Assembly: GCF_900113285.1 (NCBI RefSeq)
Contig: NZ_FOOT01000002.1
Location: 434,001 to 498,000, forward strand
Direction: 5' to 3'
From: Pontibacter chinhatensis
Lineage (GTDB): Bacteria; Bacteroidota; Bacteroidia; Cytophagales; Hymenobacteraceae
Length of the DNA stretch: 64,000 nucleotides
The position numbers and the translations under genes were made by a program. Shown one piece after another: positions 992-63,099 of this stretch. Numbering within the stretch: position 1 is the stretch's first letter; every line of letters starts with the position of its first letter. The notes beneath the pieces are model-generated. The model was not told where the DNA came from. It was given only the letters and a program-made list of their open reading frames with translations, and made no database searches.

Positions 992-1043
992 TATTTTTAA
1001 CTTTATACTTTGAGCAAGACACAGCCATACTTGAAAGTATAAA

Positions 1044-1727
1044 ATGGACCTGCAGACGCACTATAACACGCTTTGGGAGAAATCACGGGCAGGCTTTGAG
1101 GCCGGTAGCTTTAAGCTTGATCCCTGGATTGATAACCCTGCTGACGACAGGCTTGGCATCACCCTGCTGGCGCGTCCCTCCTGTGAGGTAAGAGAGCGCA
1201 TCCGCGCCTTTCTGGACGAGCTGCAACAGGTAGCGCCGGAGCAGTATTTCTATCCCGACACTGATCTGCACATCACCATCCTGTCTATCATTTCCTGCAC
1301 TGCCAGCTTCACACTAAGCGCGGTAAAACCAGCGGATTACGTGCAGTTGCTGGAAAGTATAACCCACCACGCCAGCCCTTTTGAAATTGATATCAACGGC
1401 ATCACCGCCTCCCCAGAAGCTGTCATGGTACAGGGCTTCCCACTGGACAACAGCCTGCAGATGCTTCGGGAAAGTATACGCGCCGCCTTTAGCTCCACCT
1501 CGCTGCTGCAGTCTTTGGACCAGCGCTATACTTTAAAAACCGCTCACGCTACGGTACTCCGGTTCAGGGCACCCGTTCAGCAGCCGGAGAAGCTTTTAAG
1601 GTTACTGGAGAATTATAGAACCTATGATTTCGGCACCTTTGAGGTGGAGGAACTGGAGGTGGTGTACAACGATTGGTACCAGCGGGCGGAGAAAGTAAAG
1701 GTGTTGGGTAGGTTTAAGTTAGGATAA
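1044..1727 (+). CDS. 2H phosphoesterase superfamily protein
   Basis: A 227-residue protein with the two H-x-T motifs that define the 2H phosphoesterase fold (2'-5' RNA ligase and cyclic phosphodiesterase relatives): H76-I-T78 in LHITIL and H168-A-T170 in AHATVLRF. Spacing and total length fit the family. There is no signal peptide, so it should be cytoplasmic. Known members hydrolyse cyclic phosphates on RNA ends or small nucleotides; the substrate here cannot be told. It sits 52 bases after the GH92 terminator and has no evident link to glycan use. Three copies of the TATACTT/AAGTATA heptamer lie inside the gene (near 1356, 1469 and 1527), and another just precedes the start codon. Confidence 0.8.
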   Translation: MDLQTHYNTLWEKSRAGFEAGSFKLDPWIDNPADDRLGITLLARPSCEVRERIRAFLDELQQVAPEQYFYPDTDLHITILSIISCTASFTLSAVKPADYVQLLESITHHASPFEIDINGITASPEAVMVQGFPLDNSLQMLRESIRAAFSSTSLLQSLDQRYTLKTAHATVLRFRAPVQQPEKLLRLLENYRTYDFGTFEVEELEVVYNDWYQRAEKVKVLGRFKLG

Positions 1728-1761
1728 GTGTATTGCTGCTTCTCCCCCGCTGCTCTCTTCT

Positions 1762-1870
1762 GGCGCAAGCATCCGCTTGTGCCTTTATATACTTTGGCTA
1801 TACTTCCTGATTTATACTTTCGCTGGCGCGAGCTTGTAGCTCGTGTCTTTTTATACTTTGAGTTGTACTT
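1762..1870. repeat. Framed hairpins and TATACTT array
   Basis: Two hairpins share an outer frame. The first (1762-1783) has arms GGCGCAAGC and GCTTGTGCC around ATCC. The second (1825-1847) has arms GGCGCGAGCT and AGCTCGTGTC around TGT. The pairs that do not match as DNA are G-T, which would be G-U wobbles in RNA. Between and after them lie TATACTT copies at about 1786, 1799, 1813 and 1851. Confidence 0.7.
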
Positions 1871-1884
1871 TCATAGCCGCCGCT

Positions 1885-2135
1885 TCCTACAACTGGTCAC
1901 AAGTTATCCTTACCGGTTAAAGTTCATCCTCCAGACTTACATACCTATCGTTTCATCTCCTACTTTCTGCCCTCCTAGGCCGGGAGGCCTCGCCTTCGGG
2001 CATCGCGCTGCTTTCGCTTCCTGCCCTCGTACCTCGGGCTGCCTCGCTTGCGCTCGTCACCGGAATCTCTCGAGGCGCTCAACCCAAAGGCTGGGTTAAG
2101 GTCGATAGCCACTTGCTATGCAACTTCAGCCAAGT
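1885..2135. repeat. Long intergenic repeat, copy 1
   Basis: This stretch aligns by eye with 9820-10073 in the same orientation. Shared blocks in order are GTTCATCCTCCAG, AGGCCGGGAGGCCTCGCCTT, GGCATCGCGC, CACCGGAA, GGCGCTCAACCCAAAGGCTG with TAAGG, CGATAGC and ATGCAACTT. It contains small palindromes such as GGCC-GGGA-GGCC and AACCCA-AAGGC-TGGGTT. An open frame crosses it but is composed of repeat sequence, so I do not call a gene. Confidence 0.65.
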
Positions 2136-2151
2136 CCCCCTTTGAAGGGGG
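2136..2151. repeat. C-run/G-run hairpin
   Basis: Arms CCCCCTT and AAGGGGG around TG, followed by TAGGGGG. The same unit recurs inverted at 16230-16245 and 21534-21549. Confidence 0.6.
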
Positions 2152-2213
2152 TAGGGGGATGAGAATCGCCTGTAGATCATTCTCCTCTCTGGACAATGCG
2201 ATTTCCTTCTGGT

Positions 2214-2310
2214 AAACTCGCTTGTTATGGCGCCCGCTATACTTGGGCCTCCGGCCCAGTCGGATTACAAATCCGACCTCATAGAAAGGCACGGGTTGCA
2301 AACCCGCGCC
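2214..2310 (-). repeat. Covarying three-hairpin module, copy 1
   Basis: Read on the minus strand this matches the module at 16305-16424. On the plus strand its hairpins are: 2244-2258 with arms TGGGCC and GGCCCA around TCC; 2259-2277 with arms GTCGGATT and AATCCGAC around ACA; and 2288-2310 with arms GGCACGGGTT and AACCCGCGCC around GCA. The left edge holds the shared block GGTAAACTCGCTTGTTATGG. Confidence 0.75.
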
Positions 2311-2340
2311 AGCAAGTGGGGGTGGATTTATACTTTGTAG

Positions 2341-2360
2341 GGACAGGTCGCGACCTGTCC
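2341..2360. repeat. Perfect 20 bp palindrome
   Basis: GGACAGGTCGCGACCTGTCC reads identically on both strands. It sits directly after a TATACTT copy in the spacer between the converging genes at 1727 and 2677. Confidence 0.8.
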
Positions 2361-2413
2361 GCGCGAGAGCTGCAGCTATAAAACTTATACTTTCGCACCA
2401 GTAATCACAGACT

Positions 2414-2435
2414 CCCCGCCTTAGCTAAGGAGGGG
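2414..2435. repeat. Near-palindromic GC-box hairpin
   Basis: Arms CCCCGCCTTAG and CTAAGGAGGGG pair with one mismatch and are followed by a GGGGTGGTTGGACCC block. Related units are at 10080-10101 and 45147-45168. Confidence 0.65.
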
Positions 2436-2532
2436 ATAAAGGGGTGGTTGGACCCGGCACTGCAATCCTGCTAATCTTTCAATCCTGAAGATCCTGATTC
2501 AGACAAAGTATAGAGTATGGTCAGCGCAAGTA

Positions 2533-2600
2533 TGGCTTTTCAAGCCAGTCTGGTGGCAAACCCGACGTCATAACAGGACACAAATCTGAAGACTTGCGCC
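2533..2600 (-). repeat. Degenerate hairpin module copy
   Basis: Same order as the module at 26108-26174: TGGCTT and AAGCCA around TTC (2533-2547), then a decayed 19 bp unit (2548-2566), then a decayed 25 bp unit ending in ACTTGCGCC (2576-2600). Only the first hairpin is still perfect. Confidence 0.55.
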
Positions 2601-2638
2601 AGGAAAGTTCCGTAATGGAGATAAGTACCAGCAGAAAC

Positions 2639-2667
2639 AAATCGAGCTGCAGTTGGCAGCTCGATTT
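2639..2667 (-). terminator. Terminator after the GHL10 gene
   Basis: Arms AAATCGAGCTGC (2639-2650) and GCAGCTCGATTT (2656-2667) form a perfect 12 bp stem with a 5-base loop, 10 bases beyond the stop codon of the minus-strand gene at 2677. T-rich sequence lies on both sides, so it may act in both directions. Confidence 0.8.
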
Positions 2668-2676
2668 TATACTTTC

Positions 2677-3771
2677 CTACAACTTCACCGAGGCCGAGGC
2701 GCGTTCCAGCGCCTGCAGCACCTGCTCATTCACATCACCGAAGATAGACACGCCCTTGGCTCCGTTGGCCAGCGCGATTTCGATGCCTTGCTGTAGTTCT
2801 TCGTTGCTTTTAAAGTCAGGCAAGTATAAACCGGCGTAGAGCGGGAATTTCCCATTCAGAAAGTGCACGCCTTCCGTCACGGCATCGCCTATCCAGCGAA
2901 CATCCTCTTTGTAGAAACCGTGGTAAATCATTGGGTACACCGCGTTCAGGTTCCAGTTGGTCCAGTCCTGCCGCACGATGCGGCGGGCTACCTCCGGGGT
3001 TGGGAATACGGCGGCCGTGATGGGTTTCTTCTTCTCCTTGGCCACTTCGGCCAGGTGGTTGACGATGGTATTTACGGCGTTGTAGCGGTACAGGCGCCAC
3101 GACAGGCTGGCTTCCGGGTACTCCAGTTCCTCGATGGCCTTGCCACGCCATGCTTTGAACTTAGTGCGGCACACCTCACAGTAGCAGTAGTCGTACTCTG
3201 GCAGCTCTTTGGTCTGCTCAATCTTATAATCACTCCACAGGTTCACCGGCAGAATCACGTCGCAGAAGCGTACATAATCGAGGTGGATACCGTCGATGTA
3301 ATCTTTGCTGAGGATGTTGCGCACGTCCTCGGCCAGGTACTGCTTCACCTCCTCGCGGGAAGGGCACAGCCAGCGGTAGTACCCCACATACGGCGGCTTG
3401 TCGGCACACGACTCGCCCTTGCGGTTCTGGGCATACCACTCCGGGTGCTTTTGCAGCAACTCCTTCTCGCCCCGGTTCATGGTCCACATCCAGCGGTGGG
3501 CCTCCAGTTTGTTAGCTTTGGCCGCCCGGAAATGCTTCTCGCTATCCGCCTCAAAAAAGATCCCCCGGATACCTGCCTCGTAGAAGCGTTTGTACTGGCG
3601 CTGCAGTTCAGCCTCTTTATCGGCTTTATTGGGCCTTACCCATACCCAGTGCCTGAGCTGTTTGTTTTTAGCTGCTGGCGCTGTGGCAAGTTCGGCTAGA
3701 GCAGGCGCAGGTATACTTGCTGCCAGACCGGCTAGCGCACCCGCTTTCAGAAAGGATCTTCTTGTTTTCAT
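2677..3771 (-). CDS. GHL10-type glycoside hydrolase, Tat-exported
   Basis: A 364-residue protein beginning MKTRRSFLKAG, a twin-arginine signal ending near ALA. I place the start there rather than 16 codons upstream because it creates an ATGA overlap with the gene at 3768 and puts the signal at the N terminus. The body resembles glycosyl-hydrolase-like family 10 (GHL10/DUF187), a TIM barrel. Supporting motifs are GIRGIFFEAD, YIDGIHLDYVRF and LNAVYPMIYHGFY, with the DYVRF Asp a likely active-site residue by family analogy. Four cysteines in YDYCYCEVC and RWLCP could bind metal or form disulfides. The substrate is unknown. Translational coupling to the CBM9-like protein suggests that the two work together. 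Confidence 0.75.
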   Translation of the reverse strand: MKTRRSFLKAGALAGLAASIPAPALAELATAPAAKNKQLRHWVWVRPNKADKEAELQRQYKRFYEAGIRGIFFEADSEKHFRAAKANKLEAHRWMWTMNRGEKELLQKHPEWYAQNRKGESCADKPPYVGYYRWLCPSREEVKQYLAEDVRNILSKDYIDGIHLDYVRFCDVILPVNLWSDYKIEQTKELPEYDYCYCEVCRTKFKAWRGKAIEELEYPEASLSWRLYRYNAVNTIVNHLAEVAKEKKKPITAAVFPTPEVARRIVRQDWTNWNLNAVYPMIYHGFYKEDVRWIGDAVTEGVHFLNGKFPLYAGLYLPDFKSNEELQQGIEIALANGAKGVSIFGDVNEQVLQALERASASVKL

Positions 3772-4919
3772 TGTAAGCCTTTTATCGTTTGTACAAATCC
3801 GTTTTCGTTGATGCTCCATACTTTGCCGTCGGGCCCTTGTATGGCGGCCATGAACTGCAGCGTGCCCGCCTCCAGTTTCAGCTGGTTTGCCTTGCCTTCC
3901 ACCTCCACCTTGCCGTTTTTCAGGCCCAGCTCTTTCAAGGATTTACTGTAGCGTCCGTGCTTCCCAAAATACTCTTTCTGGCGGTAATACACCAGCCACA
4001 GGTACTGTTTCTGCATCTCGGCGTACGGCATGGTGAAATTTATACTTTGCTCACCGGAAGGCTGCTGGCTGAAGTATAAATATCCCCAACGCTCGGGCAG
4101 GTGCATGTTAATCACCCCTTGCGGCGACCACACCCAGTTATACTCCGGCAACGGCTTTCCGTCCTCACCTTTGCGCTTTACATACTTTCCGTCTACCACA
4201 TCCACATCCCACTGCACCCGCGAGAAGTTGATGCGCCACAGCGTGCCTTCGGTGGGTACACGTGTAACATTCCCTAGCGTTACCGAGCGGAACGGGATAG
4301 CCATTTCCACCGTCCAACCTTCGTCGGTATCGGTCGGGTCGTTGAGGGTGCCCTGCACCTGCACTGCCGACTTCAGCCCATGCAAATCCCAGGCAATCAG
4401 GGCGCCGTTGTTGTTGCGGTAAGGCTTAGAGAGGAACAGGTCGAAAATGGTGTTCAGCGCGTTCACCTCCACCTCAAAATACTGGTGCGTGTCGTTATCT
4501 GGGTCGATGAATACTTCGAAATCGTTGTCGTAGAACACCACTTCGTCGTGCTTCGTCAGGTTAGCCCAAACGTGCGGCTCTTTCATCTCGGCGGCAATGT
4601 ATAAATGCTCGTTATCCCAGGCCATTTTCACACGCGTCTCATAGGTTGGCGCCGGTTTTAAGTCACCTTCTATGTCGGTGAACAAATCGGTCCAGGCAGC
4701 TTGCTGCCATACCTTGTCGTTGAGGTGGCCGTCTATATTGGGGGCCTCCTTTGTGAAGTGGGTAACGTAATGTTTCGGTTCTGTGAACAGGTGCTCCAGC
4801 CCAGCAAACGGAGAGGCCGTTTTAGCCTTTCGCTTCGCTTTCGCGGAGGGATTATCTTCTGCCTGCGCGGCCAGTACGGCAAAAAGTACCAGCCAAAGGG
4901 TGAGGTAATGCTTTATCAT
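3768..4919 (-). CDS. CBM9-like carbohydrate-binding protein
   Basis: A 383-residue exported protein with a signal peptide ending at AQAE. From about residue 45 it resembles the family 9-like carbohydrate-binding fold found in many Bacteroidota proteins: the PNIDGHLNDKVWQQAAW opening, YETRVKMAWDNEHLYIAAEMKEP, the acidic FYDNDFEVFIDPDND segment and GWTVEMAIPF. It probably binds sugar and has no visible catalytic signature. A C-terminal part (about 290-383) includes MQKQYLWLVYYRQKEYFGKHG and ends in a small beta-rich segment that I do not recognise. The gene overlaps the downstream GHL10 gene by four bases (ATGA), a strong sign of co-translation. A 330-base spacer rich in hairpins separates it from the upstream GH20. 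Confidence 0.75.
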   Translation of the reverse strand: MIKHYLTLWLVLFAVLAAQAEDNPSAKAKRKAKTASPFAGLEHLFTEPKHYVTHFTKEAPNIDGHLNDKVWQQAAWTDLFTDIEGDLKPAPTYETRVKMAWDNEHLYIAAEMKEPHVWANLTKHDEVVFYDNDFEVFIDPDNDTHQYFEVEVNALNTIFDLFLSKPYRNNNGALIAWDLHGLKSAVQVQGTLNDPTDTDEGWTVEMAIPFRSVTLGNVTRVPTEGTLWRINFSRVQWDVDVVDGKYVKRKGEDGKPLPEYNWVWSPQGVINMHLPERWGYLYFSQQPSGEQSINFTMPYAEMQKQYLWLVYYRQKEYFGKHGRYSKSLKELGLKNGKVEVEGKANQLKLEAGTLQFMAAIQGPDGKVWSINENGFVQTIKGLQ

Positions 4920-5006
4920 ATGTAAGGTATAAAAGCGTCTCCCTTATCTATAAAAATCAAAGAGAGACGCTAAAGCAGAATTTATACTTGATGGTTGTAG
5001 GAAGCT

Positions 5007-5191
5007 GTTCCGGATTTGCAATTCGGAACCCTACTAACTGCGGATTTGCAATCCGCTTACTTGCCAGTAGCTATTGCCTTTGCTCTTGCGGATGACAAAT
5101 CCGCGGGTATTATACTTTCGGATTGCAAATCCGAAAGGGCGATTGCAACTGGCACATATCAGAACTATACTTTCGCCAGTTACAAACTGGC
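5007..5191. repeat. Cluster of fixed-geometry hairpins
   Basis: This fills most of the 330-base spacer. Five hairpins follow one another: 5007-5029, arms GTTCCGGATT and AATTCGGAAC, loop TGC; 5040-5056, GCGGATT and AATCCGC, loop TGC; 5088-5104, GCGGAT and ATCCGC, loop GACAA; 5115-5137, CTTTCGGATT and AATCCGAAAG, loop GCA; 5175-5191, GCCAGTT and AACTGGC, loop ACA. The fourth is a perfect 10 bp stem and overlaps a TATACTT heptamer. No gene is supported here. Confidence 0.75.
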
Positions 5192-5249
5192 AGCCATACT
5201 TTACCACCAGTTACAGCTGCGCTCAAACTGGCGGTATGTACTTTTTATA

Positions 5250-7562
5250 CTATTGCACAGCAGGCGCATACTTAAACCAGCTGGCCGGAATGGGCTGCGG
5301 CTCTCCTCCGTCTTTGCTGTAAAGAAGCTGCAAAGTATAGCCTCCGCCACCTTCAATAAAATCCAGCGCAAATGGCTGCAAGCCTTTCTCCAGCGCTACC
5401 TGACCGATTTTCTCCTGTGGTGGGTGCAGACCGTCGTTATCCACTACCAGGCGGTCGGCAATACGCAGCACGCCACCATCGTCGCAGGTGAAAAAGAAAG
5501 TATAGATTCCTGTTTCCGGCACCTCCAGGTAACTTCTGAATTGCACGCCAAAGCTTGGCGCCTGTGCCTCACGTGGAACCTGCAGCTGCGCTACCTCTGC
5601 CACACCGGTTGGCGTGGCCTTGGTCATACCTCCTGTATTCTTGAAGGACGCCTTGTAGTAGGTCGCCTGCAAACCTGGCTTTGTACTTTTAGCCGCTACC
5701 GCCTTGGCATACGTCTGCTTTTCGTACGTGGTGGTGTAGGTATCGCCTTTCAAGCCTTCCGGTGTAAAGGCAGCTATCTTGAGCGTGGTCGTCTCCGTAA
5801 TTGTCAGCGGCTTGTCCAGTACCTTGGAAGAAGTCGTGGGCTGGCTGCCGTCGGTGGTGTAGCGGATAATCAGGTTGTCGAGTGGTTTTGGGATGTCCAG
5901 CGTGGCCTTGTCGGTGAACACGTTCACGTCCATAAAACCTTCCAGGTCAGGCAGGCGGTAGTTTACATCCAGCGCGTCGAGGCGTTTGTAGTGTGTCTGC
6001 AGGCGCTTCAGGTAAGACTCATAATCCCGCTTGTCAGACCAAACCACTTCAGCCAGCGCCGTCATACGCGGCATGTACATGTACTCGGCCCGGTTCTCGG
6101 AGGGGATGTACTCGGTCCAGATATTGGCCTGCGCCCCCAATATAGCCTTGGCTTCCTCGGCGTTCAGCCCCTTCGGCACCACGTTGAAATGGTACACGTT
6201 ATACACTGACTTCTTATCAGGTATTCCGTCGAAGTATAGCGGGCTGTTTGGCGTCATGATGACCTTGTTGCCGTTTCTGGCGGCGTGCAGTGGGGCATTG
6301 GGTGCCCAGGTGCGCCAGAACATCACCACAGCATCCGAATTAATGCCACCCTCCAGCATCTCATCCCAGCCAATCAGCGTCTTGCCCTTGGAGTGGAAGA
6401 ACTTTTGCATGCGGTAAATAAAGTAGCTCTGCAGCTCCTCCACGTTTTTCAGGCCCTCGCGCTTCATCAACTCCTGGCAACCGGCGGAGTTGGCCCAGGT
6501 GGTTTTCTCCACCTCGTCGGCACCCAGGTGGATGTACTGGCTCGGGAACAGCGCGATAATCTCGTTGAACACGTTCTCGGCAAACTCATAGGTGCTCTCC
6601 TTGCACGGGCAAATCGGCACGGAGAACGTCTCGCCCCAACCCGATTCGCCGCAGGTCAGGAACGGGTAGGCATCAATAGCGGCCTTCATGTGGCCGGGCA
6701 TGTCAATTTCAGGGATGATTTCGATGTGGCGGGCAGCAGCGTAGGCGATGATGTCCTTCATCTCCTCCTGCGTATAGAAGCCGCCATACATCGTCTGCCC
6801 GTTTTTCTGCACCACGTGGCGCTCGTCCAGGGCAAAATCCGGGTTCTCTTTGGAACGGGCAATCACGTCGCGGTCGTGGTTGTTGAAGGTGCGCCATGCG
6901 CCTTCCTCGGTCAGTTTCGGGTACTTTTTGATTTCGATGCGCCATCCCTGGTCGTCGGTCAGGTGCAGGTGCAGCTTGTTAAACTTGTAAAGCGCCATCA
7001 GGTCGATGAACTTCTTCAGGTAATCGGTCGTGAAGAAGTGGCGGCTCACGTCCAGGTGCATGCCGCGCCAGCCATACACCGGCTCGTCCTGAATCTGCAG
7101 GGCCGGAAGTATAAGCTGCGCCTGCGCTGCCTGCTGCTCTATACTTGCCGGCAGCAGTTGGCGCAGCGTCTGCACTGCCCGGAACATGCCTGCCGATTCC
7201 TTCGCCGATAGTACTACCTGCTTCGGCGTGATGCTCAGGCGGTAGCCTTCGGGTGTGTTTATACTTTGGTCGTACTGGAAAACAATGGAATTGGCGGAGG
7301 CTTTCTTTGCCTCTTTCAGCTTTTTGCCCAGGCTACCGGAAAGCAGGTATTGCAGCTGCTCGGCCTCGTTCTTAAAAATGCTCTCCTTGGGCAGCACCAG
7401 CTTGGTTTTGGAGGTGATGGTAAAGCTGCCCTGCTGCGGGGTCAGTGAGCTTGGGTACGGAATCAGGGGGTACTTCGGGTCGAGGGTTTGCGCCGTTGAC
7501 AAGGTTTGCACCCCAAGAAAAATAACTGTGAAAAGTAGGGCGTAAAGGTAGTGTTTGAACAT
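5250..7562 (-). CDS. GH20 beta-hexosaminidase with chitobiase-C and PA14 domains
   Basis: A 770-residue secreted exo-beta-N-acetylhexosaminidase, expected to remove terminal GlcNAc or GalNAc. Signal peptide to about residue 24. The GH20b-like N-terminal domain spans about 30-155 and the catalytic barrel about 158-530, with HLHLTDDQGWRIEIKKYP near 198 and the catalytic pair D349-E350 in YIHLGADEVEK, where the glutamate is the acid for substrate-assisted cleavage. Residues 545-615 resemble the chitobiase C-terminal fold (IIRYTTDGSQPTTSS). Residues 630-765 look like a PA14 carbohydrate-binding domain (GLQATYYKASF, YTFFFTCDDGGVLRI, GYTLQLLYS). It is the largest-footprint GH20 of the four here and the only one with PA14, which hints at binding a bulky polymer or mucin. 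Confidence 0.93.
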   Translation of the reverse strand: MFKHYLYALLFTVIFLGVQTLSTAQTLDPKYPLIPYPSSLTPQQGSFTITSKTKLVLPKESIFKNEAEQLQYLLSGSLGKKLKEAKKASANSIVFQYDQSINTPEGYRLSITPKQVVLSAKESAGMFRAVQTLRQLLPASIEQQAAQAQLILPALQIQDEPVYGWRGMHLDVSRHFFTTDYLKKFIDLMALYKFNKLHLHLTDDQGWRIEIKKYPKLTEEGAWRTFNNHDRDVIARSKENPDFALDERHVVQKNGQTMYGGFYTQEEMKDIIAYAAARHIEIIPEIDMPGHMKAAIDAYPFLTCGESGWGETFSVPICPCKESTYEFAENVFNEIIALFPSQYIHLGADEVEKTTWANSAGCQELMKREGLKNVEELQSYFIYRMQKFFHSKGKTLIGWDEMLEGGINSDAVVMFWRTWAPNAPLHAARNGNKVIMTPNSPLYFDGIPDKKSVYNVYHFNVVPKGLNAEEAKAILGAQANIWTEYIPSENRAEYMYMPRMTALAEVVWSDKRDYESYLKRLQTHYKRLDALDVNYRLPDLEGFMDVNVFTDKATLDIPKPLDNLIIRYTTDGSQPTTSSKVLDKPLTITETTTLKIAAFTPEGLKGDTYTTTYEKQTYAKAVAAKSTKPGLQATYYKASFKNTGGMTKATPTGVAEVAQLQVPREAQAPSFGVQFRSYLEVPETGIYTFFFTCDDGGVLRIADRLVVDNDGLHPPQEKIGQVALEKGLQPFALDFIEGGGGYTLQLLYSKDGGEPQPIPASWFKYAPAVQ

Positions 7563-7667
7563 AATATGTAAGTATAAAAGCGTAAGCTGTGTTGAGTGAT
7601 GCTGTTTTGCAGCGTCACTCTTAAGTTTGGTTTGCAGGTAGAGCTGTTACTGCTGTCTGAGATGCAT

Positions 7668-7777
7668 GGCGCGAGCGTCCTCGCTCGTGACCGGCTATCG
7701 TGGGGCCTCTGGCCCATTTAGTAGAAACAGCGGCCAGAGGCCACCCCTATACTCAGCACGAGCGAGGACGCTCGCGC
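7668..7777. repeat. Nested palindrome of two opposed hairpins
   Basis: Positions 7669-7689 and 7757-7777 are exact 21 bp inverted repeats. Each arm is itself a hairpin with a CGAGCG/CGCTCG stem and a 4-base loop. Inside lie TGGGGCC-TCT-GGCCCA (7701-7716) and GGCC-AGA-GGCC (7732-7742), which are also mutually inverted. The whole 110 bases could fold as one long cruciform or as four local hairpins. Confidence 0.8.
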
Positions 7778-7791
7778 TATAATACTTCTGA

Positions 7792-7823
7792 AACCCACCT
7801 CTGTCTCTTGGGAGGGGTGGGTT
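7792..7823 (-). terminator. Candidate terminator after GH29
   Basis: Arms AACCCACC (7792-7799) and GGTGGGTT (7816-7823), eight bases beyond the stop codon of the fucosidase at 7832. It belongs to the GC-box family seen at 2414 and 10080, so it could be a repeat that serves as a terminator. Confidence 0.5.
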
Positions 7824-7831
7824 AAGTATTT

Positions 7832-9682: not shown

Positions 9683-9712
9683 TATACTTGAGCTATACTT
9701 TTTTTATCCCGC

Positions 9713-9813
9713 GCTTCCGGATTAACAATCCGAAAGTATAGAATGACGGATTTGTCATCCGCACGAGCCAGGTTTATACTTTGGCTATACTTTATACTTG
9801 CTAGTTTATACTT
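9713..9813. repeat. Hairpins plus four-copy TATACTT array
   Basis: CGGATT and AATCCG around AAC (9718-9732), then a second CGGAT/ATCCG hairpin (9747-9761). After these come four exact TATACTT copies at 9775, 9786, 9793 and 9807. This string resembles those at 1786-1857 and 44993-45032. It lies in the 516-base spacer upstream of the fucosidase. Confidence 0.7.
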
Positions 9814-9819
9814 TCCTAG

Positions 9820-10073
9820 CTCCTGCTTCCTTCTGCTTGAACCAAGCTATCCTTACTAGCTGCTGTTCATCCTCCAGCCCTACTTGCCTAAAGTTGCACC
9901 TCTGGCTTAGGCTCCCTCCCAGGCCGGGAGGCCTCGCCTTCAGGCATCGCGCGGTGTACATTTCCTTTGCTACCCTTCGGTCGCAATGCCGCCACAGCGG
10001 CACCGGAAATCTACAAGGCGCTCAACCCAAAGGCTGGGATAAGGCCGATAGCTGCTGCTAATGCAACTTGAAC
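9820..10073. repeat. Long intergenic repeat, copy 2
   Basis: Diverged second copy of the element at 1885-2135, same orientation, with the same ordered blocks including AGGCCGGGAGGCCTCGCCTT and GGCGCTCAACCCAAAGGCTG. An open frame here gives a peptide with PPRPGGLAF and GAQPKGW, which also appear in the frame over copy 1. I take it as repeat-derived, not a protein. Confidence 0.65.
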
Positions 10074-10079
10074 AGAGCT

Positions 10080-10101
10080 CCCCTCCTTAGCTAAGGAGGG
10101 G
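10080..10101. repeat. Perfect 22 bp GC-box palindrome
   Basis: Arms CCCCTCCTTAG and CTAAGGAGGGG with no loop, followed by TAGGGGTGG and TTTGACCC. It is the cleanest copy of the unit seen at 2414 and 45147, and it always sits at the end of a repeat cluster. It lies about 100 bases beyond the cutC stop codon. Confidence 0.75.
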
Positions 10102-10198
10102 TAGGGGTGGTTTGACCCGGTACTACTAAAAGCTCCCTCTCCTCTCGTCGAAATGATAGTCTTGCCAGCAACTGCACCTGACAACTACTAACCAATAA

Positions 10199-11909: not shown

Positions 11910-11991
11910 GTTATAGGTTGTTGCGGTTATGGGTGCAGCTTAATACCAGTTATAGTTATTCTTCCAGGAGGAGTCGGAGGTTTGTCCTTTT

Positions 11992-12065
11992 GTCATCCTG
12001 AAAGGATCTTGGTGGCTGGTAGCATAAGCTTAACCTCCCTTCCACCAAGTTTCTTCCAGAATGAC
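11992..12065. repeat. Imperfect 24 bp inverted repeat
   Basis: Arms 11992-12015 and 12042-12065 match at about 20 of 24 positions with no length difference; both start with GTCAT and end with CTTGGTGG when read inward. It lies in the 217-base spacer between GH125 and the glycosylasparaginase, so it could also act as a transcript-end structure for GH125. Confidence 0.7.
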
Positions 12066-12126
12066 AATGGGTGTTCAACAGTTTTTCTCGTCCTCCTCCC
12101 CTCCTCAGAAAAGGCAAGGGGTGGGT

Positions 12127-51071: not shown

Positions 51072-51267
51072 TATTATACTTTCAATTGGGTTCCAGAACC
51101 CGGAATTTATACTTGTGTCTTCGTTAACGCTGAAATAAAACATGTTATCTCTCCGTGCCTATACTTCATCAAGGCGATTTCTACCTTAGCTGTACAAGGC
51201 TGGCATGCTCTCCTGATGCACTTTCCTGAGGGCATGACGGGAATAGGGAGAATCTAAAGTAAGGAAA

Positions 51268-51307: not shown

Positions 51308-51410
51308 TGTTATACCTTATGAGAGAGGAAAAATACGCAATGTTTTCGTAAACGCAAACTACTATATAGAGCTCGTACTTCTCCTTAGGACAGGCGTTCT
51401 TTCTGTCTTA

Positions 51411-52577: not shown

Positions 52578-52603
52578 TATAGTTATTGAATTATAGAGTT
52601 TAG

Positions 52604-52640
52604 GAGTTAGAAAGTTAAAAAGTTAGAGAGTTAGAAAGTT
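52604..52640. repeat. Short direct repeat GAGTTAGAAAGTT
   Basis: Exact 13 bp copies at 52604-52616 and 52628-52640 with further AGTTAG units between them, in the 114-base spacer between the epimerase and the sialidase. Confidence 0.7.
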
Positions 52641-52691
52641 GAGGTCGTACCGCGCTTCATTCACAGATTCACTCAATCACTCATTCAAAAT

Positions 52692-53873: not shown

Positions 53874-53886
53874 ATCGGGAGGTTAT

Positions 53887-55959: not shown

Positions 55960-56021
55960 GGCAGATGCAAACACAACACACCTGCCCGGTTATACTTTCG
56001 GGCAGGTGTGTTGCTGTGGTT

Positions 56022-57593
56022 TTAGTTTATTACTTCGCTTACCGGGATGCGCACAAAGTATAGCTCGCGCACGCCCTCGTAGAGCAGGCCGATGGTGTTA
56101 TCATCGACTTTGGTGAGGGCTGAGTAGCCGTACGTACCGCGCTCGTCAACCAGCAAGGCGTTGTTTTCGGGCCAGGCCTCGCCCAGATCGGTGCTGGCTT
56201 TGAGCGTGATGTTGTAGCGGCCGTGCGGCGTTGCGGCGTTGCTGAAGAAGAGTACTTCCTCTTTCCCTTTCTTCGTGCTCACATCAGCCTTGATGAAGCC
56301 GGCCATGCACACCGGATCCGGCAGGGCGCTGTAGGAAGTATGGTGCTCTACCCAGGTCTGGCCCAGGTCGGTGGTGGTAGCCACAGATCGGAAGCGGCCG
56401 CGGTTGTCGCGCATGTTCAGCATCAGGGTGCCGGGCGTGGTTTCCACTACCTGGCTCTCGGTGGTATTGGATTTTGCGCCGATGCCGCTCTTCCAGGTCT
56501 TGCCGTTGTCCTGGCTGTAGATGACAGAGGAGTGCGGCATCTTGTTCTCATCCCAGTACTGCGACGGGAAAACCAGCGTGCCGTTCTGCATCACGATGCC
56601 GTTGCCGGGGCCGTTGAAATAGAGGCGCCAGTCGGGGTTCTTGATCTGATCAGTGATGCTGTACGGCTCCGACCAGGTTTTGCCGTCGTCGTCGCTGCTC
56701 ACCAGCACAAACTGCCCCGTCTCGTCCGGCGACAGGCCGGGGCCGGAACCGGCAATGGAACGGTTGCCCTTGCTCCACAGCGCTGCCACCCAAATTTTGC
56801 CGGTGGCGGGGTCAAAAAGTATAGATGGGTCGCCGACGCCGTTGTTTTCGTGCGGCTCGCCCATGTCCATGATAATTTTCATCGGCTCCCAGGTTTTGCC
56901 GCCGTCGGTGCTGCGGCTCATGCCCACGTCGATATTGGCCGGCAGGTCGCCAGCGTGCTCGTAGCGGATGTCATACACGGCAATCAGGGTGCCTTTGTCG
57001 GTGGTGGCGATGCCCGGGATGCGGTAGGTGTGCGAACCGTCCTGGCCGGCCTTGCGCAGGGCAATGCCCATGCGTTTGGTATACTCCGAGCCATCCTCCG
57101 ACACCGGGTATACTTTGCCAGCCGCGTCTACCAATTGGGTAGCGTGCAGCGCCACTTTGTTATCGATGTTGGCCGACTCCTTCAGCGTAACGCTGAACCA
57201 GATATAGTGCTTGCCCGGCTTGGCCTGGATGCTCAACGGCACCTCAAAATCCTCTGCCGTCGGCCGGATAGTCTTAACCAAGTTATCGGTACGGAACAGC
57301 GCCTCGGAGCCGGTAAAGTATACATCCAGCTTCTCCACATCCTGCAGGGCCGTGCTGTTGAGGCGGGCTTTTATACTTTGGAAGTTTATACTTTCGCTGC
57401 CCGCCGGCACGTACATCGTTACGCGCAGCACCGGGTTATGCTCCGTGCCCCGCAGCACCGGCACGGTTGGGGCAGTGCTCGTTATACTTACCCCACTCAC
57501 TGCGGGACCCGATGTGGTTACGCTTCTGGTGCAGCCCACGCTACAGAACAGCACCAGCAACAGGCAGCACAGAATACCTTTGGCTCTTGTCAT
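56022..57593 (-). CDS. GH33 sialidase lipoprotein with N-terminal domain
   Basis: A 523-residue lipoprotein with Cys21 in the lipobox CSVGC. Residues about 35-165 form a beta-sandwich found ahead of some sialidase propellers (VPVLRGTEHNPVLRVTMYVPAGSESINFQSIKARLN). The propeller begins with HTYRIPGIATTDKGTLIAVYDIRY, whose Arg belongs to the catalytic triad, and carries Asp boxes STDGGKTWE, SSDDDGKTWS, SQDNGKTWK, TTDLGQTWV and STDLGEAWP. It is a second exo-sialidase that differs in anchoring and added domain, so the pair may split surface and periplasmic work or different linkages. It lies between the symporter fusion and the esterase in the operon. Confidence 0.94.
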   Translation of the reverse strand: MTRAKGILCCLLLVLFCSVGCTRSVTTSGPAVSGVSITSTAPTVPVLRGTEHNPVLRVTMYVPAGSESINFQSIKARLNSTALQDVEKLDVYFTGSEALFRTDNLVKTIRPTAEDFEVPLSIQAKPGKHYIWFSVTLKESANIDNKVALHATQLVDAAGKVYPVSEDGSEYTKRMGIALRKAGQDGSHTYRIPGIATTDKGTLIAVYDIRYEHAGDLPANIDVGMSRSTDGGKTWEPMKIIMDMGEPHENNGVGDPSILFDPATGKIWVAALWSKGNRSIAGSGPGLSPDETGQFVLVSSDDDGKTWSEPYSITDQIKNPDWRLYFNGPGNGIVMQNGTLVFPSQYWDENKMPHSSVIYSQDNGKTWKSGIGAKSNTTESQVVETTPGTLMLNMRDNRGRFRSVATTTDLGQTWVEHHTSYSALPDPVCMAGFIKADVSTKKGKEEVLFFSNAATPHGRYNITLKASTDLGEAWPENNALLVDERGTYGYSALTKVDDNTIGLLYEGVRELYFVRIPVSEVIN

Positions 57594-57675
57594 TATACTT
57601 TGTGTTTGATACTTGCTGCGTTTTCCAGCGCAGCTTTATACTTGGGTTTATACTTTAAAAGACTATGGTCTATAC

Positions 57676-60357
57676 TTACATCACCTTCTCTTTTACCTTG
57701 CCGCGCTGCGCCTCGCTCTCATAGATGGTCAGTCCCTCGTGCTCGCGCTCCTGACCGCCGAAAAGCAGGCTGAACAGGTACCCGAAAATCACGCAGGATG
57801 CCAGCCCGGTGAAGGCATAGAGCAGCAGGTTGATGTTGGTGTACTGGCTGATATAAAACTGCACCAGTCCGCTCAGCAGAAGCCCCGTAATAGCCCCTTT
57901 GGCATTGGCCCTTTTGGTGAAGATGCCCAGCATGAACAAGCCGCCCAGGCCGCCGGTGAACAGACCAAGAATGGTGTTAAACTGGTCCCAGAGCGAAGAA
58001 ATGCCCCATTGCGCCATCACCAGCGCCAGCGAGGTGCCCACCACGCCTATCGTCAGGGTGATGTACTTGGCGGTGCTCAGGTAGCTTTTGTCTGACTTGG
58101 TCGGCACAAAGCGCCTGTAAAAGTCAGTGATGATGGCCGTAGTCACCGAGTTCATGCTGCTGCTCAGGGTAGACATGGCCGCTGCGAATATGGCGGCAAT
58201 CAATAGGCCGGTGATGCCCGCCGGAAGCTCCGTTACGATATACCACGGGAAGATAGCGTCCTGGCTTTGCAGCTGGTAGTTCACTTTCTCCGGGTGCTCC
58301 CTAAAGAACAGGTACAGCATGGTACCGATCGAGAAGAAGATGATAGCCGAAGGCAGCGCCATCCAAGCACCCAAACGCATACTTTTCTTCGACTCTGCCT
58401 CGTTTTTCGTGGTCAGGTATTTCTGCACCACGGATTGGTCGGTACCATAGGAAATTACGTTGATAGCCAGGCCACCCAGTATCACCACCCACAGCGTAGG
58501 CTCATTAAGGCTGAAAGTGAGGTCGAGGATATTGAGCTTCTCGTTTTGCTGGATGGTTTGCCAGATCGTGTCAGCATCGGCCTCCAACTGAAATGGAATC
58601 ATCACCAGGCACACCAGGGCACCGCCCAAAAGTATAACCACCTGCGCCACGTCCGTCCATACCACAGCCTCAATGCCGCCCTTCATAGTATAAAAGATTG
58701 TAATTATGCCCATCAGCAGGATGCACAGGTTCACGTTAATGCCTGTCACCAGGGTGAGCGCCAGGCTCGGCAGCAGGAGCACGATGGCCAGGCGACCGAG
58801 CTGCAGCATGATGTAAAGCAACGAGGCCAGGGCGCGCGCCACGTAGTTGAAGCGCTTCTCCAGGTACTCGTAAGCCGAGGTTATCTGCAGCTTGCGGTAA
58901 AACGGAATGAAGTAGGTAGTGATTACAGGAATGACCAGGATAATGGTCATCTGAAGTATAAAGTAGTTCCAGTTGGTGGCGTAAGTCTTGGCCGGGATGG
59001 ACATGAAGGTGATGGCGCTCAGCTGCGTGCCGTAGATGCTCAGGCCAGCGGCCCAGCCCGGTATGCGCTGCCCGCCGCGGAAGTAGTCGTCGGTGGTGCT
59101 TTGGTTACGGGAGGTCCACATGCCGATGCCCACCATCAGCAGCAAGTATAACACCACGACCACGTAGTCGAGCCAGGCGAAGTAGTGCTGCGGCGCGAGA
59201 TTGCCTTTGAGCACCTCCGGCGTGCGCACCCCCGGCCTGATTTCGCCGGAAGGAATCAGGATGTCGTTGTCCCAGCGGGTGGCAAAGGTGGTTACGGGCG
59301 CGTAAGGCAGCTCGCTGGACTTGGTCCAGGCGTCGGTAACAGTGTTGTAGAGGTAAATGTCTTTGCTGAAGCCCTCGTGCTGGGTCTGCAGGGCCAGGCG
59401 CGCTGCCTCCAGCCTTGCCTTCTCGGCCTCGTCGGTGGTGCGGGCGATGGCGGCATTGTGCTGCTCTATCTGTGTAAAGACATTGCCTTTGTCGCCTCCG
59501 AAAACAAGGATGTAGTTGGCCCCGGTGATAACGCCGGTAGCAGCAGAGAGCGTTGTTTCGTTGCCCTTGCCGTCAGAAATATTGCTAAGTTGTTTCCAGT
59601 TGTTCTTCTTTGGGTCGTAGCGGAAGGTGGAGCCGTAGAGTTCGCTCACGCCGGACTCGGTTCTGGCCCTGCCGCCAATCAGGTATAAAGCCGGGTACTC
59701 GCCGTTGGACTGCACAAACGCCACCGCATGCGAGAGCGCCTTTGGCAGCTCCGGCAGCTGCTCCCAGCCTTTGGAAAGTGAAGATAAGTCTAAGCGGTAA
59801 AAGCCGTTGCTGGCCTTGCCCGTGGTTTCGCCGCCTGCCACGTATACCTGGTTGCCGATGACGGCCGCGGCAGCATTGGTAAGGGGCAACGGCAGCGCCG
59901 GCAGCTGCTCTACCTTTACTTCTTTTGAGGCGGGGTTCCACTGCAACAGCAGCACCGCGTTCTGGATGCCCTGCTCATTCTCCCCGCCTATACTTACCAC
60001 GCCCTGCGGGGTGGCAACGTTGGCGCTATAGGCCAGCGGCTGCGGCAGTTGAAAGGTTTTGTCGTGCCAGCTATACTTGCCCTGTCCGTCTTTAAGCAAG
60101 ACGAAAATATCCTGCCAATACTTTTTCTTTCCTCCCTCCCAAGGCAAGCCCTCCGGAAAGTTGGCCCCACCGCCCAGCAGCAGCGCGTTGTTGTGCACGC
60201 CGCCCACCGGACCGGCCAGGCCCGGCTGCACCGCCTGTCCGGGAGAGGCAGGAAGTGTGGCTGCAACAGACCACTCCAGGTTGTTAGGCTTTTGCTGTTC
60301 TGCCCGGCCTACGGTAAAGGCGAGTAGAAAAAGAAGTATAGGCAGGATATTTTTCAT
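57676..60357 (-). CDS. Kelch mutarotase fused to sodium:solute symporter
   Basis: An 893-residue fusion. A signal peptide is followed by a kelch beta-propeller (about 25-375) of the NanM-like cyclically permuted mutarotase type: PGQAVQPGLAGPVGGVHNNALLLGGGANFP, YVAGGETTGKASNGFYRLD, LYLIGGRARTESG, YILVFGGDKGNVF. From about 395 there are about 13 membrane segments of the SSS family (YVVVVLYLLLMVGIGMW, RGGQRIPGWAAGLSIYGTQLSAITFMSIPAKTYA-like sequence, GGIEAVVWTDVAQVVILLGG). The propeller would convert alpha- to beta-sialic acid in the periplasm, and the symporter would import it with sodium. Adjacency to the lyase gene, nine bases away, supports sialic acid as substrate. Confidence 0.93.
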   Translation of the reverse strand: MKNILPILLFLLAFTVGRAEQQKPNNLEWSVAATLPASPGQAVQPGLAGPVGGVHNNALLLGGGANFPEGLPWEGGKKKYWQDIFVLLKDGQGKYSWHDKTFQLPQPLAYSANVATPQGVVSIGGENEQGIQNAVLLLQWNPASKEVKVEQLPALPLPLTNAAAAVIGNQVYVAGGETTGKASNGFYRLDLSSLSKGWEQLPELPKALSHAVAFVQSNGEYPALYLIGGRARTESGVSELYGSTFRYDPKKNNWKQLSNISDGKGNETTLSAATGVITGANYILVFGGDKGNVFTQIEQHNAAIARTTDEAEKARLEAARLALQTQHEGFSKDIYLYNTVTDAWTKSSELPYAPVTTFATRWDNDILIPSGEIRPGVRTPEVLKGNLAPQHYFAWLDYVVVVLYLLLMVGIGMWTSRNQSTTDDYFRGGQRIPGWAAGLSIYGTQLSAITFMSIPAKTYATNWNYFILQMTIILVIPVITTYFIPFYRKLQITSAYEYLEKRFNYVARALASLLYIMLQLGRLAIVLLLPSLALTLVTGINVNLCILLMGIITIFYTMKGGIEAVVWTDVAQVVILLGGALVCLVMIPFQLEADADTIWQTIQQNEKLNILDLTFSLNEPTLWVVILGGLAINVISYGTDQSVVQKYLTTKNEAESKKSMRLGAWMALPSAIIFFSIGTMLYLFFREHPEKVNYQLQSQDAIFPWYIVTELPAGITGLLIAAIFAAAMSTLSSSMNSVTTAIITDFYRRFVPTKSDKSYLSTAKYITLTIGVVGTSLALVMAQWGISSLWDQFNTILGLFTGGLGGLFMLGIFTKRANAKGAITGLLLSGLVQFYISQYTNINLLLYAFTGLASCVIFGYLFSLLFGGQEREHEGLTIYESEAQRGKVKEKVM

Positions 60358-60366
60358 CAGACTGTG

Positions 60367-61308
60367 TTAGGCGTATTTCGTTTCGGGTGCGCGGGAGCAA
60401 TATTCGTCAAAACCCAGTGCGGCCACATCCTCTTTAAAAGACTGGAACTGCGCTGTACCCATGTTGCGAACTGGCAGACGGAACGCGCCGCAGTCGAGGC
60501 CAATCAGTTTCATGTAGGCTTTGCCGGTGGCAATGCCGCCATACTTGCCCAGCAGGCGGATCATGTCGATGGACTGCTGCTGCAGGCTTTGGGCCTTCTC
60601 CAAATCACCTTGCTCAAAGGCCTCTATCAGGCTGGTGTAGAGCGGAGCGGCATAGTTGTAGGTGCTGCCTACACCGCCCTTTGCCCCAAGTACCAGGGCA
60701 GACAGGAGGTTCTCATCGCGGCCCCACAGCATGTCATACTTGCCGTTGCCGAAGCGCAGGCAAGACTGGAAATCCATGAAATCCTCGTGCGTATACTTGA
60801 TGCCCGCAAAGTTGGGGATGCTTCCCTCCACCTCTTTGAGCAGGTCTATCATCTGGAAACCCACCCCCGTCAGCACCGGAATGTGGTAGTAATAGAAGGC
60901 CATCTGCGGCACGGCATCGGCCACCGCTTTGCAGCACTCAGCCAGCACCTGCACCGAAGCGGGCTTAAAGTATGAGGGGGCCGTAAATGATACGGCGTAC
61001 AGGCCGATACGCTGCGCGTGCCGCGACAGGTCGATGGCATCCTGCAGGCAGGTGCCGCCCACCAGCGTGATTACCTTAAAGTCATCGTCGCCTTTGGTAG
61101 CCTCGCCCCAAGCCTCGGCTACCTGCTTCTTCTCCTCCAGCGTCAGGGACACGCCCTCCCCGGTGGAGCCGCAGATGAAGGCTCCTGTATTCCCGTTTGT
61201 TTTCAGCAGGTTGTAGTAAGATGGGATCAGCTCCAGGTGCAGGCTTCCATCTGGGTGCATGGGTGTGAAAGGAGCCACGATGAGCCCTTGTAAGTGTGCA
61301 AATTTCAT
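60367..61308 (-). CDS. nanA: N-acetylneuraminate lyase
   Basis: A 313-residue cytoplasmic TIM-barrel protein of the DHDPS/NAL family. GSTGEG (47-52) binds the keto-acid carboxylate. Y141 in YYYHIPVLTGVG and Schiff-base K171 in FAGIKYTHEDFMD complete the active site. The lyase splits N-acetylneuraminate into ManNAc and pyruvate. Its place directly ahead of the symporter fusion and in one operon with the epimerase makes the lyase role much more likely than lysine biosynthesis. The 249-base gap upstream to SusD holds a strong hairpin at 61484. Confidence 0.94.
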   Translation of the reverse strand: MKFAHLQGLIVAPFTPMHPDGSLHLELIPSYYNLLKTNGNTGAFICGSTGEGVSLTLEEKKQVAEAWGEATKGDDDFKVITLVGGTCLQDAIDLSRHAQRIGLYAVSFTAPSYFKPASVQVLAECCKAVADAVPQMAFYYYHIPVLTGVGFQMIDLLKEVEGSIPNFAGIKYTHEDFMDFQSCLRFGNGKYDMLWGRDENLLSALVLGAKGGVGSTYNYAAPLYTSLIEAFEQGDLEKAQSLQQQSIDMIRLLGKYGGIATGKAYMKLIGLDCGAFRLPVRNMGTAQFQSFKEDVAALGFDEYCSRAPETKYA

Positions 61309-61483
61309 TCAGGTGTATTTAGCGTTCTGTATTATGTTCGAGCTTTTTGTTTAGCATCATCAGACATGCATACTTTCCATACTTTAAGGTTTGGGCGAAC
61401 TCTTAAAGGTACTACCTTTTTAATCCCTTTAAAACCTAAGCTTCACCGTGTTCAAAGTATGGCGGCTGCTGCTTTGTGCCCGT

Positions 61484-61517
61484 GGAGCTGTGCCACACCA
61501 GCGTATAGCACAGCTCC
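61484..61517 (-). terminator. Hairpin between SusD and nanA
   Basis: Perfect 10 bp stem GGAGCTGTGC (61484-61493) and GCACAGCTCC (61508-61517) with a 14-base loop, 40 bases past the SusD stop codon. On the minus strand no T-run follows, so it is more likely a processing or attenuation site that separates receptor from enzyme expression. Confidence 0.55.
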
Positions 61518-61557
61518 TTTTAGCACATCAGGCAAGTATACATGCCCTTGCCCGGGG

Positions 61558-63099
61558 TTAGTACCCTGGCGTCTGTGTCAGTTTCGGATCGGAGTTGAGC
61601 ATGCCCACCGAGATTGGCAGCAGCAGCTTGTACTCCTGCCCCGCGGCCAGGTATACCGGATCCACGTAGGCAAACACCCACTCGTTGCCCGCTCTGCGGA
61701 GCGACCACCAGCGCCTGCCCTCGCCTATAAACTCCCGCAGGTCCTCCTCCAGAATGGCGCGCATGTTGTCTTCCTGGCTGCCGTTTTCATAAGGAGTATA
61801 GTCGCTGCCATAGGCACGAGCCCGAATCTGGTTTATCTCGGCGGATGGGTCCATGCCCTGCTTGGTCTTGGCCTCGGCCAGCATCAGGAGCACATCGGCA
61901 TAGCGGTACACCGGGAAGTCCGTGTCGTACAGCTGGGCCCCAGCATCTTGGCGGCCGGCAAACTTGGTCAGCAGCACACCGGCAATCGGGTAAGTAGGCG
62001 CTACGTCGCGGTACATCACCTGAAACGTTGCCGCAATGCGCTTGTCGTCAGGGTTCTGCAGTTTCTGAATCATCCCTTCAGACATGCCCACGCGGCTTGC
62101 ACCCGCTAGATAAGGATAAGCCTGCGCCACTGTCCTTGGGTTCGTTAGAGGGTCCAGCAGCAGGGTGCTGGCCTGGGTGGTGTTTACCCTGAAGTTGCCA
62201 TACACGCCCATCGTGCCCTCATCCTTCTCGTAGTTGATGGCAAAGATGATTTCCTTGTTGCCAGCCTCTCTTGCCGGGTTAAACAGGTCGGCATAGTTCT
62301 CCAGCAAACCAAGTCCGCCGATGGTGCCTACCTCCTCCAGTGCCTGCTGCGCCGCGGCAAAGTCAGCGCTGCCACCGCCCATATGTGTGCCCGACCAGAG
62401 GTAGGCATCGCCTTTCAGGGTAAGGGTAGCGGCGCGGTTCCAGTAGATGTGCTTGGAGGTGCCGGTAAAGCCGCCGGTCAGGGCGTTATCGCTCCCAAAC
62501 AGCGCCAGCGACTGATCGATGTCAGCTTTTACCTGGGCCATCACGGCGTCCGGGGTAGCCCGCTCGCGGTAGAGGTCCGCCAGCCCGCCCACCTGTGTTA
62601 CGGGCTCGGTGGTCAGCGGCACGCCTCCCCAGGTTTTAAGCATCGTATAGTAGATGTAACCGCGCAAACCGTGCATCTCAGCCAGCACCCTGTTCTTCTG
62701 GTCATCCGGCACCGGTGTTTGCGGGAACAGCTTAATGGCTGTGTTCAGCTTATCCAGCAGGCTGTAGAAGCCCGCCCAGTTGGTAGCCGGCACATTGTTA
62801 ACGTCAATGTTATGGGTATAGTAGTTCCTGGCGCCCCCATCCTCGGACTCTGTGAAAAGACCGTCAGCCCATATCTCCGAGCGCATCTCCCCCAGCGAGA
62901 ACAGCGTGCCGTGGTACGATCGGAAGGAGCCGTACACGCCATAGTATAAGGTCATGGCAGCGTTCGGGTCTGAGAGGATAACGTCCCGGTTAAGTGAGGT
63001 TTGTGGTTTCACCTCATCCAGCTGGTCGCCGCAGCCCGTGGCACCAAGCACCAACGAGAGCCCCAGCACATATTTTATACTTGAAATATATCGTTTCAT
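61558..63099 (-). CDS. SusD/RagB lipoprotein, sialic acid operon
   Basis: A 513-residue lipoprotein; lipobox GATGC with Cys23. RagB/SusD blocks: MTLYYGVYGSFRSYHG, LAEMHGLRGYIYYTMLKTWGGVPLTTEPV, TLTLKGDAYLWSGTHMGGG, FPVYRYADVLLMLAEAKTKQGMDPSAEINQIRARAYG and the terminal EDLREFIGEGRRWWSLRR. Length is typical. Like the SusD of Tannerella sialic acid loci, it probably captures sialic acid or sialylated fragments for the SusC partner, whose gene lies 25 bases upstream. Confidence 0.94.
   Translation of the reverse strand: MKRYISSIKYVLGLSLVLGATGCGDQLDEVKPQTSLNRDVILSDPNAAMTLYYGVYGSFRSYHGTLFSLGEMRSEIWADGLFTESEDGGARNYYTHNIDVNNVPATNWAGFYSLLDKLNTAIKLFPQTPVPDDQKNRVLAEMHGLRGYIYYTMLKTWGGVPLTTEPVTQVGGLADLYRERATPDAVMAQVKADIDQSLALFGSDNALTGGFTGTSKHIYWNRAATLTLKGDAYLWSGTHMGGGSADFAAAQQALEEVGTIGGLGLLENYADLFNPAREAGNKEIIFAINYEKDEGTMGVYGNFRVNTTQASTLLLDPLTNPRTVAQAYPYLAGASRVGMSEGMIQKLQNPDDKRIAATFQVMYRDVAPTYPIAGVLLTKFAGRQDAGAQLYDTDFPVYRYADVLLMLAEAKTKQGMDPSAEINQIRARAYGSDYTPYENGSQEDNMRAILEEDLREFIGEGRRWWSLRRAGNEWVFAYVDPVYLAAGQEYKLLLPISVGMLNSDPKLTQTPGY

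Follow-up and report, generated by a model that had tools for sequence, protein, structure and literature searches.

Sequence-tagged uptake of DNA is, to our knowledge, established in two proteobacterial families, where the receptors are pilins, either shown or predicted. Here we analyzed a 64-kb stretch of the Pontibacter chinhatensis genome (hereafter "the window"; C13:434001-498000 of G000, a 5.07-Mb genome in 25 contigs) that is crowded with the nonpalindromic heptamer AAGTATA and its complement TATACTT, and we followed this word through the rest of the genome, the genus, and more distant relatives. From what we describe below, AAGTATA/TATACTT is probably a DNA uptake sequence, by which competent cells would recognize and favor DNA of their own kind.

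In the available parts of the reports cited here, the DNA uptake sequence (DUS) of the Neisseriaceae is present in thousands of copies and in dialects which follow the phylogeny, around an invariant core, with one genome holding two dialects and some family members holding none (PMC3630211); the Pontibacter word resembles it in all of these respects. It differs in belonging to another phylum, in its core (TATA here, CTG there), and in being shorter, with 7 to 8 bases strongly conserved and 10 at most. The Neisseria receptor is the type IV pilin ComP and uptake was tested there, whereas our searches found no secretin in G000 and no true pilus ATPase in the Pontibacter genomes. The uptake signal sequence (USS) of the Pasteurellaceae is similarly a dispersed, over-represented self-tag with divergent dialects for which a drive through biased uptake has been proposed, but it is a different word in another phylum and its predicted receptor is the type IV minor pilin ComN (PMC12616744, PMC1939737). 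Within the Bacteroidota, transformation of Riemerella anatipestifer needs ComEC and DprA, both of which are matched in Pontibacter, and four essential proteins unlike known transformation machinery; the available part of that report mentions no uptake sequence (PMC8459023), and its DUF5689 domain is absent from G000. Searches of the open-access literature, judged by listings, turned up no description of such a sequence in Pontibacter or in Bacteroidota.

A sequence-only reading of the window had described the heptamer as massively over-represented, and this excess proved to be a property of the whole genome. AAGTATA and TATACTT together number 11,627 (6,004 + 5,623) as against 360 (191 + 169) for the reversed word, which rules out a feature local to the window, and TTATACTT is present 6,884 times (3,584 + 3,300) as against 82 (42 + 40) for its reversed-word control. 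Correction by a Markov model did not explain the frequency either: in 464 kb of the genome, an order-2 model predicts 73 copies of the 7-mer, 18.7 of TTATACTT, and 2.0 of the 10-mer AAAGTATAAA, and we counted 981, 577, and 186, respectively. One-change variants in the last six positions of TTATACTT reached 10 to 47 copies each in these 464 kb, compared with 577 for TTATACTT itself. The flank profile reads TTTATACTT(T), with T at two upstream positions and a weaker T downstream, and carries little information further than two bases on either side.

The sequence-only reading had also argued that copies in both orientations and all frames could not be due to codon or protein constraint, and shuffling bore this out. 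When synonymous codons were shuffled within each of 346 predicted open reading frames (ORFs; defined by a longest-ORF heuristic, not a gene finder), 92.4 copies were left, compared with 636 observed in the ORFs, and all six frame/strand classes were enriched 3.7- to 23.7-fold over the shuffles; codon or protein constraint is thereby ruled out as the cause. Copies do lie in both genes and spacers, as claimed, but not evenly, with 1.55 per kb inside ORFs and 6.1 per kb between them (∼4-fold denser). ATA codons also lie outside the motif, which contains only 219 of 1,295 with two low-GC islands left out. Terminator hairpins were rejected as a source, as only 11 motif pairs in the 464 kb form stems of at least 11, with two hairpins counted twice. 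Thus, as in DUS and USS, the word is dispersed, nonpalindromic, and far above expectation, and genes carry it in either orientation and in every frame.

A short, dense, genome-wide word in both orientations might instead be the binding site for an abundant chromosome-organizing or DNA-processing protein whose specificity differs by clade. Such a protein would fit the higher density between ORFs and the excess of same-strand neighboring copies 11 bp apart, a spacing of about one helical turn (23 pairs in G000:C13:34001-498000, 19 of them on the same strand, vs ∼4 pairs per distance beyond 15 bp). Chi sites and sites like the FtsK-orienting polar sequences (KOPS) are expected to be oriented relative to replication. 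In 20 stretches of 20 kb with a GC-skew switch, taken from the main contig (4.98 Mb) of G257, TATACTT/AAGTATA counts were 165/186 and 160/137 by skew sign, or 346 versus 302 by leading strand (p = 0.09); no replication polarity was seen in these stretches, which sets the word apart from Chi- or KOPS-like sites. Moreover, selection on each of 11,000 single sites would be weak, so that a concerted switch of thousands of sites from one form to another would be hard without biased transmission. We consider the binding-site explanation quite unlikely. The sequence-only reading had offered an uptake sequence or a genome-wide protein-binding site; the former is now much better supported by the genome-wide excess in all frames and by the dialects, aligned differences, and sparse islands described below, although neither a receptor nor the pilus parts of the known systems were found in our searches.

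Within Pontibacter, the motif takes different forms in different species, and the heptamer is only one of these dialects, a finding absent from the sequence-only reading. We took the ∼20-kb ComEC locus from each of 50 Pontibacter-group genomes, one per species, and sought the most over-represented words without presetting any. (Named members are P. mucosus, G263; P. roseus, G268; P. fetidus, G202; P. populi, G255; P. diazotrophicus, G252; P. pamirensis, G185; and Botryobacter ruber, G270.) This unprompted scan returned three strong words, AAGTATA(A), (C)AGGTATA(G), and AACTATA(G), which were confirmed by whole-genome counts. A strong dialect (at least 8-fold over control, with thousands of copies per genome) was present in 39 of the 50 genomes, namely AAGTATA in 23, AGGTATAG in 12, and AACTATAG in 7, with G251, G202, and G280 each appearing in two lists because they carry two dialects. 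The ratio of TATACTT to control was 8.8 to 38.5 in 23 genomes and did not exceed 4.5 in the remaining 27. Copies of AGGTATAG (the AGG dialect) ranged from 2,823 to 5,222 across its 12 genomes, with no more than 833 in any of the remaining 38, and those of AACTATAG (the AAC dialect) ranged from 2,002 to 8,208 across its 7, with no more than 907 in any of the remaining 43. The dialects share a TATA core. The AAG-dialect genome G241 holds a tandem array (G241:C1:1944098-1946633) in which AGGTATAG recurs at intervals of ∼66 bp.

No strong dialect was seen in 11 genomes (G140, G185, G247, G252, G254, G266, G270, G271, G272, G276, and G282), which are larger (4.9-6.5 Mb) than most dialect genomes (3.8-5.5 Mb). 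Weak dispersed candidate words in two of these, TATATAG in G140 and CGGTATA in G276, were counted as unproven. Beyond the genus, none of 235 genomes in an order-wide draw of 241 rose above ∼2.4 times the reversed-word control for TTATACTT, as read from the table; of the six genus members in the draw, G140 and G185 were also low. When the scan was applied to 10 stretches from three sister genera (one of only 8.6 kb) and to the non-Pontibacter ComEC loci, no comparable dispersed word emerged; in those loci the strongest words were tandem arrays (Rufibacter loci and L257) and GAAA-loop hairpins (L242, from a Saprospiraceae bin). The L242 hairpins are dispersed over 14 places and are terminator-like, with stems closing on CCGAAAGG. 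Three other candidate words were dropped: AGGTAGAG, from G270, lies mostly in a local array (7 of its 9 places), AATTAGGAA occurs only rarely across 150 family genomes, and ATTAGGA is a heptamer microsatellite upstream of ComEC in three Rufibacter loci (L213:6799, L217:6212, and L222:5984).

Species-specific variants of a very dense short word are also known from cyanobacteria, and the dialects could reflect a process like that behind highly iterated palindrome 1 (HIP1), in which a methyltransferase-linked repair bias would make and keep sites and dialects would follow changes of enzyme. As far as the available part of the HIP1 report goes, that word is equally dense, lies within genes, and gives way to alternate HIPs in some species with the matching methyltransferase, but HIPs are GC-rich palindromes tied to methyltransferases and the Pontibacter word is AT-rich (PMC4390886). 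AAGTATA, AGGTATAG, and AACTATAG are all asymmetric, unlike HIPs. Our turnover tests, described below, give no proof of uptake and so leave some room for a HIP-like origin, which we judge unlikely.

The dialects are distributed along the phylogeny, as are those of DUS and USS, with one genome per species considered. In a tree of five proteins from a single locus, that of ComEC (four present in 50 genomes, one in 46), the 12 AGG genomes formed one clade and the 7 AAC genomes another, each with 100% support in the Shimodaira-Hasegawa-like approximate likelihood ratio test (SH-aLRT), the AAC clade including G251, which is now mostly AAG. Four-state dialect labels change 7 times on this tree, compared with a mean of 25.4 for shuffled labels.

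Aligned genomes differ at the dialect base in place. For the sister pair G251 (mostly AAG) and G202 (mostly AAC), 47.8 kb could be aligned at 80% identity from 80 kb of each. The 129 AAGTATA sites of G251 corresponded to AAGTATA at 35 sites and to AACTATA at 16 sites in G202, whereas 104 control sites matched for the base at that position included 24 unchanged sites and none with the dialect change (16/129 vs 0/104; Fisher p = 8e-5). The opposite class of difference was found at 2 sites (16 vs 2; p = 0.001), and 35 AAC sites were common to both genomes. Similar differences separate the AGG and AAG dialects: G269 had AAG at 6 of 31 AGG sites of G277, compared with 3 of 79 controls (p = 0.014), and of 19 distinct AAG sites in G269, 6 were AGG in some AGG genome, compared with 8 of 98 controls (p = 0.011). 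Further sets gave 2/15 versus 3/51 controls for G284 and 4/21 versus 1/60 controls for G268; these AGG/AAG sets overlap and are not independent, and neither they nor the G251/G202 comparison carry a direction of change.

Within the window itself, AAGTATA/TATACTT is the commonest 7-mer class, and the following features were mapped (window coordinates).

1004..63900 (copy starts 1004 to 63894), both strands (57/100): 157 dispersed copies of AAGTATA/TATACTT in genes and spacers, fuller form AAAGTATAAA (word counts, flank profile).
9765..9823, strand not stated: intergenic-type cluster of four TATACTT in 59 bp, similar to the cluster at 44983-45042 (word places).
44983..45042, strand not stated: cluster of four TATACTT and one CATACTT in 60 bp (word places).
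32001..42000, strand not stated: motif-poor stretch with 6 copies in 10 kb, over SusC/SusD-type ORFs at 32249-35503, 36084-37994, and 38010-41135 (word counts, Pfam matches).
1..995, strand not stated: zero copies; fragment of a Glyco_hydro_92 gene (ORF 12-935) at the window edge (word counts, Pfam match).

The 157 copies (57 AAGTATA and 100 TATACTT) compare with 4.9 expected from base composition. Under a maximal-order Markov model of the window alone, 142 would be expected, which leaves almost no excess because the sub-words themselves belong to the motif. The strand imbalance (100:57; p = 0.0007) is local, the genome standing at 6,004:5,623. Local counts agreed closely with the sequence-only reading: for the first 9.8 kb, where about 39 copies and an expectation of about 1.2 had been given, we counted 38 with 0.75 expected, and the density reported to stay high at 41 to 50 kb corresponds to 29 copies. 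The densest 2 kb is 44001-46000, with 15 copies around the 44983-45042 cluster. A fragment of glycoside hydrolase family 92 had been described as free of the motif, which is correct, but the zero may be chance because the mean genome density predicts only one or two copies in 1-995. Most of the window (2677-61308) consists of a large locus for glycan degradation, in which SusC/SusD-type genes (32249-41135) are accompanied by genes for GH20, fucosidases, GH125, a sulfatase, PNGase-like, alpha-galactosidase, and sialidase-like proteins, a sialic-acid epimerase, and a transporter.

Intergenic motif clusters such as those at 9765-9823 and 44983-45042, some of which are similar to one another, raise the question of whether a mutational or selfish-repeat process simply keeps creating the word, with no role in uptake. 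Sister genomes with hexamer arrays derived from the AGG dialect word, (AGGTAT)n of ∼10 or more units (from L056:8564 on in G277 and from L090:11618 on in G256), could be read in the same way, as could a gain/loss test (below) that showed neither selection nor drive. Such a process is, however, hard to square with flanks that share little past two bases, or with a C/G difference between dialects which is seen at the motif and is absent from control words of the same alignment. We also compared G000 with P. mucosus (132 kb aligned at 92.8% identity), where 275 of 332 motif sites were unchanged, compared with 1,294 of 1,940 sites for 104 permuted words (p = 1e-9), a conservation that counts in favor of an uptake sequence. 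The 57 changed sites were mostly substitutions (45, as against 12 with gaps), and we regard the mutational or selfish-repeat explanation as very unlikely.

An uptake sequence implies a competent cell, and the sequence-only reading had suggested looking for competence genes. ComEC (PF03772) and DprA (PF02481) were each matched in all 50 genomes. G258 and G275 are the only two of the 50 with stops inside the ComEC match, and the same two have stops in DprA (G258:C1:4158575-4159168, with ComEC locus L069; G275:C13:17460-18072, with ComEC locus L064), as if competence had been lost twice. In the G258 ComEC locus, four of five other aligned genes are free of stops and one has one; in that of G275, two of seven other aligned genes also have stops, so sequence quality may be the cause in G275. 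ComEC of G273 is also split in frame. G258 has the lowest TATACTT ratio among the 23 AAG genomes (8.8).

The known uptake-sequence systems have in common a type IV pilus apparatus and, as shown or predicted, a minor pilin as receptor, although such pili do not enter into the functional definition of an uptake sequence. We found no such apparatus in searches with PF00263 and PF00437, minor pilins not being searched. The secretin family (PF00263) had no match in G000, while its control set was matched in 6 genomes. The type IV pilus ATPase family (PF00437, T2SSE) gave only short partial matches in the 50 genomes, 3 of them just over the cut-off, and the G000 match was rejected as it is an SF1-type helicase. 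Two domains from Riemerella transformation were also sought: PF07075 is present in all 50 genomes and therefore uninformative, and DUF5689 is present in 22 of the 50 and was rejected as the receptor since it is absent from the genome of the window. Because the typical pilus parts were not found and we infer the role of the word, we do not claim its membership in the uptake-sequence class; and because the pilus machinery of the known systems was not found, such a tag would have a new setting.

Uptake sequences are expected to be scarce in foreign DNA. Two low-GC islands (40 and 30 kb; GC 0.42 and 0.40) carry 0.59 copies per kb, compared with 2.39 elsewhere in the 464 kb. Ten of the 25 ORFs of the first island were scanned, with GmrSD, helicase, and PD-(D/E)XK nuclease domains among the matches and 3 of the 10 unmatched; of the 31 ORFs in the two loci that contain the second, 10 were scanned, 2 of which were unmatched while the other 8 encode enzymes for surface polysaccharides or nucleotide sugars.

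Several results weigh against an uptake sequence. The islands still hold 41 copies, compared with 18.9 from base composition, and on contig C21 the parts unaligned to relatives have 2.9 to 3.1 copies per kb, compared with 2.1 in parts aligned to both, so this accessory-DNA comparison runs counter to a simple depletion rule. In a small three-genome test, limited to sites conserved in the outgroup G262, gain from near-misses (2/103 vs 30/3,592 in 60 control words) and loss of ancestral copies (18/134 vs 39/281 in 60 control words) did not differ from controls, which does not support drive. The 11 genomes that lack a strong dialect have ComEC and DprA as well, so these two do not explain the distribution of dialects. 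No receptor was found among the families searched, DUF5689 being absent from G000, and searches of the open-access literature, judged by listings, gave no uptake or transformation data for Pontibacter.

Weighing these points, we retain the uptake sequence as the probable function and suggest how it might operate. A surface receptor would bind free DNA bearing the motif and import it in preference to other DNA, and recombination of the imported DNA would replace near-matches with the motif, a molecular drive that could build up thousands of copies. If the specificity of the receptor shifted, a new dialect would slowly overwrite the old one and leave two-dialect genomes in between. As our searches met none of the pilus parts, a novel type of protein would have to serve as the receptor, perhaps one belonging to the poorly known Bacteroidota uptake machinery. 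The fuller proposal, that this is a pilus-independent, sequence-specific uptake and the first with species dialects in Bacteroidota, with a receptor that drives the self-tag through thousands of sites, dialects that can switch in place, and G251, G202, and G280 caught mid-switch, is one we hold to be evenly balanced. If true, a dense dialect system in Bacteroidota without signs of type IV pili would suggest that sequence-tagged uptake arose separately here and uses DNA receptors of a new class. With three strong dialects, genomes of mixed dialect, and relatives poor in the motif, the 50 genomes provide a natural series on the origin, switching, and decay of self-recognition by a DNA word, and on how such self-recognition would limit gene flow between species.

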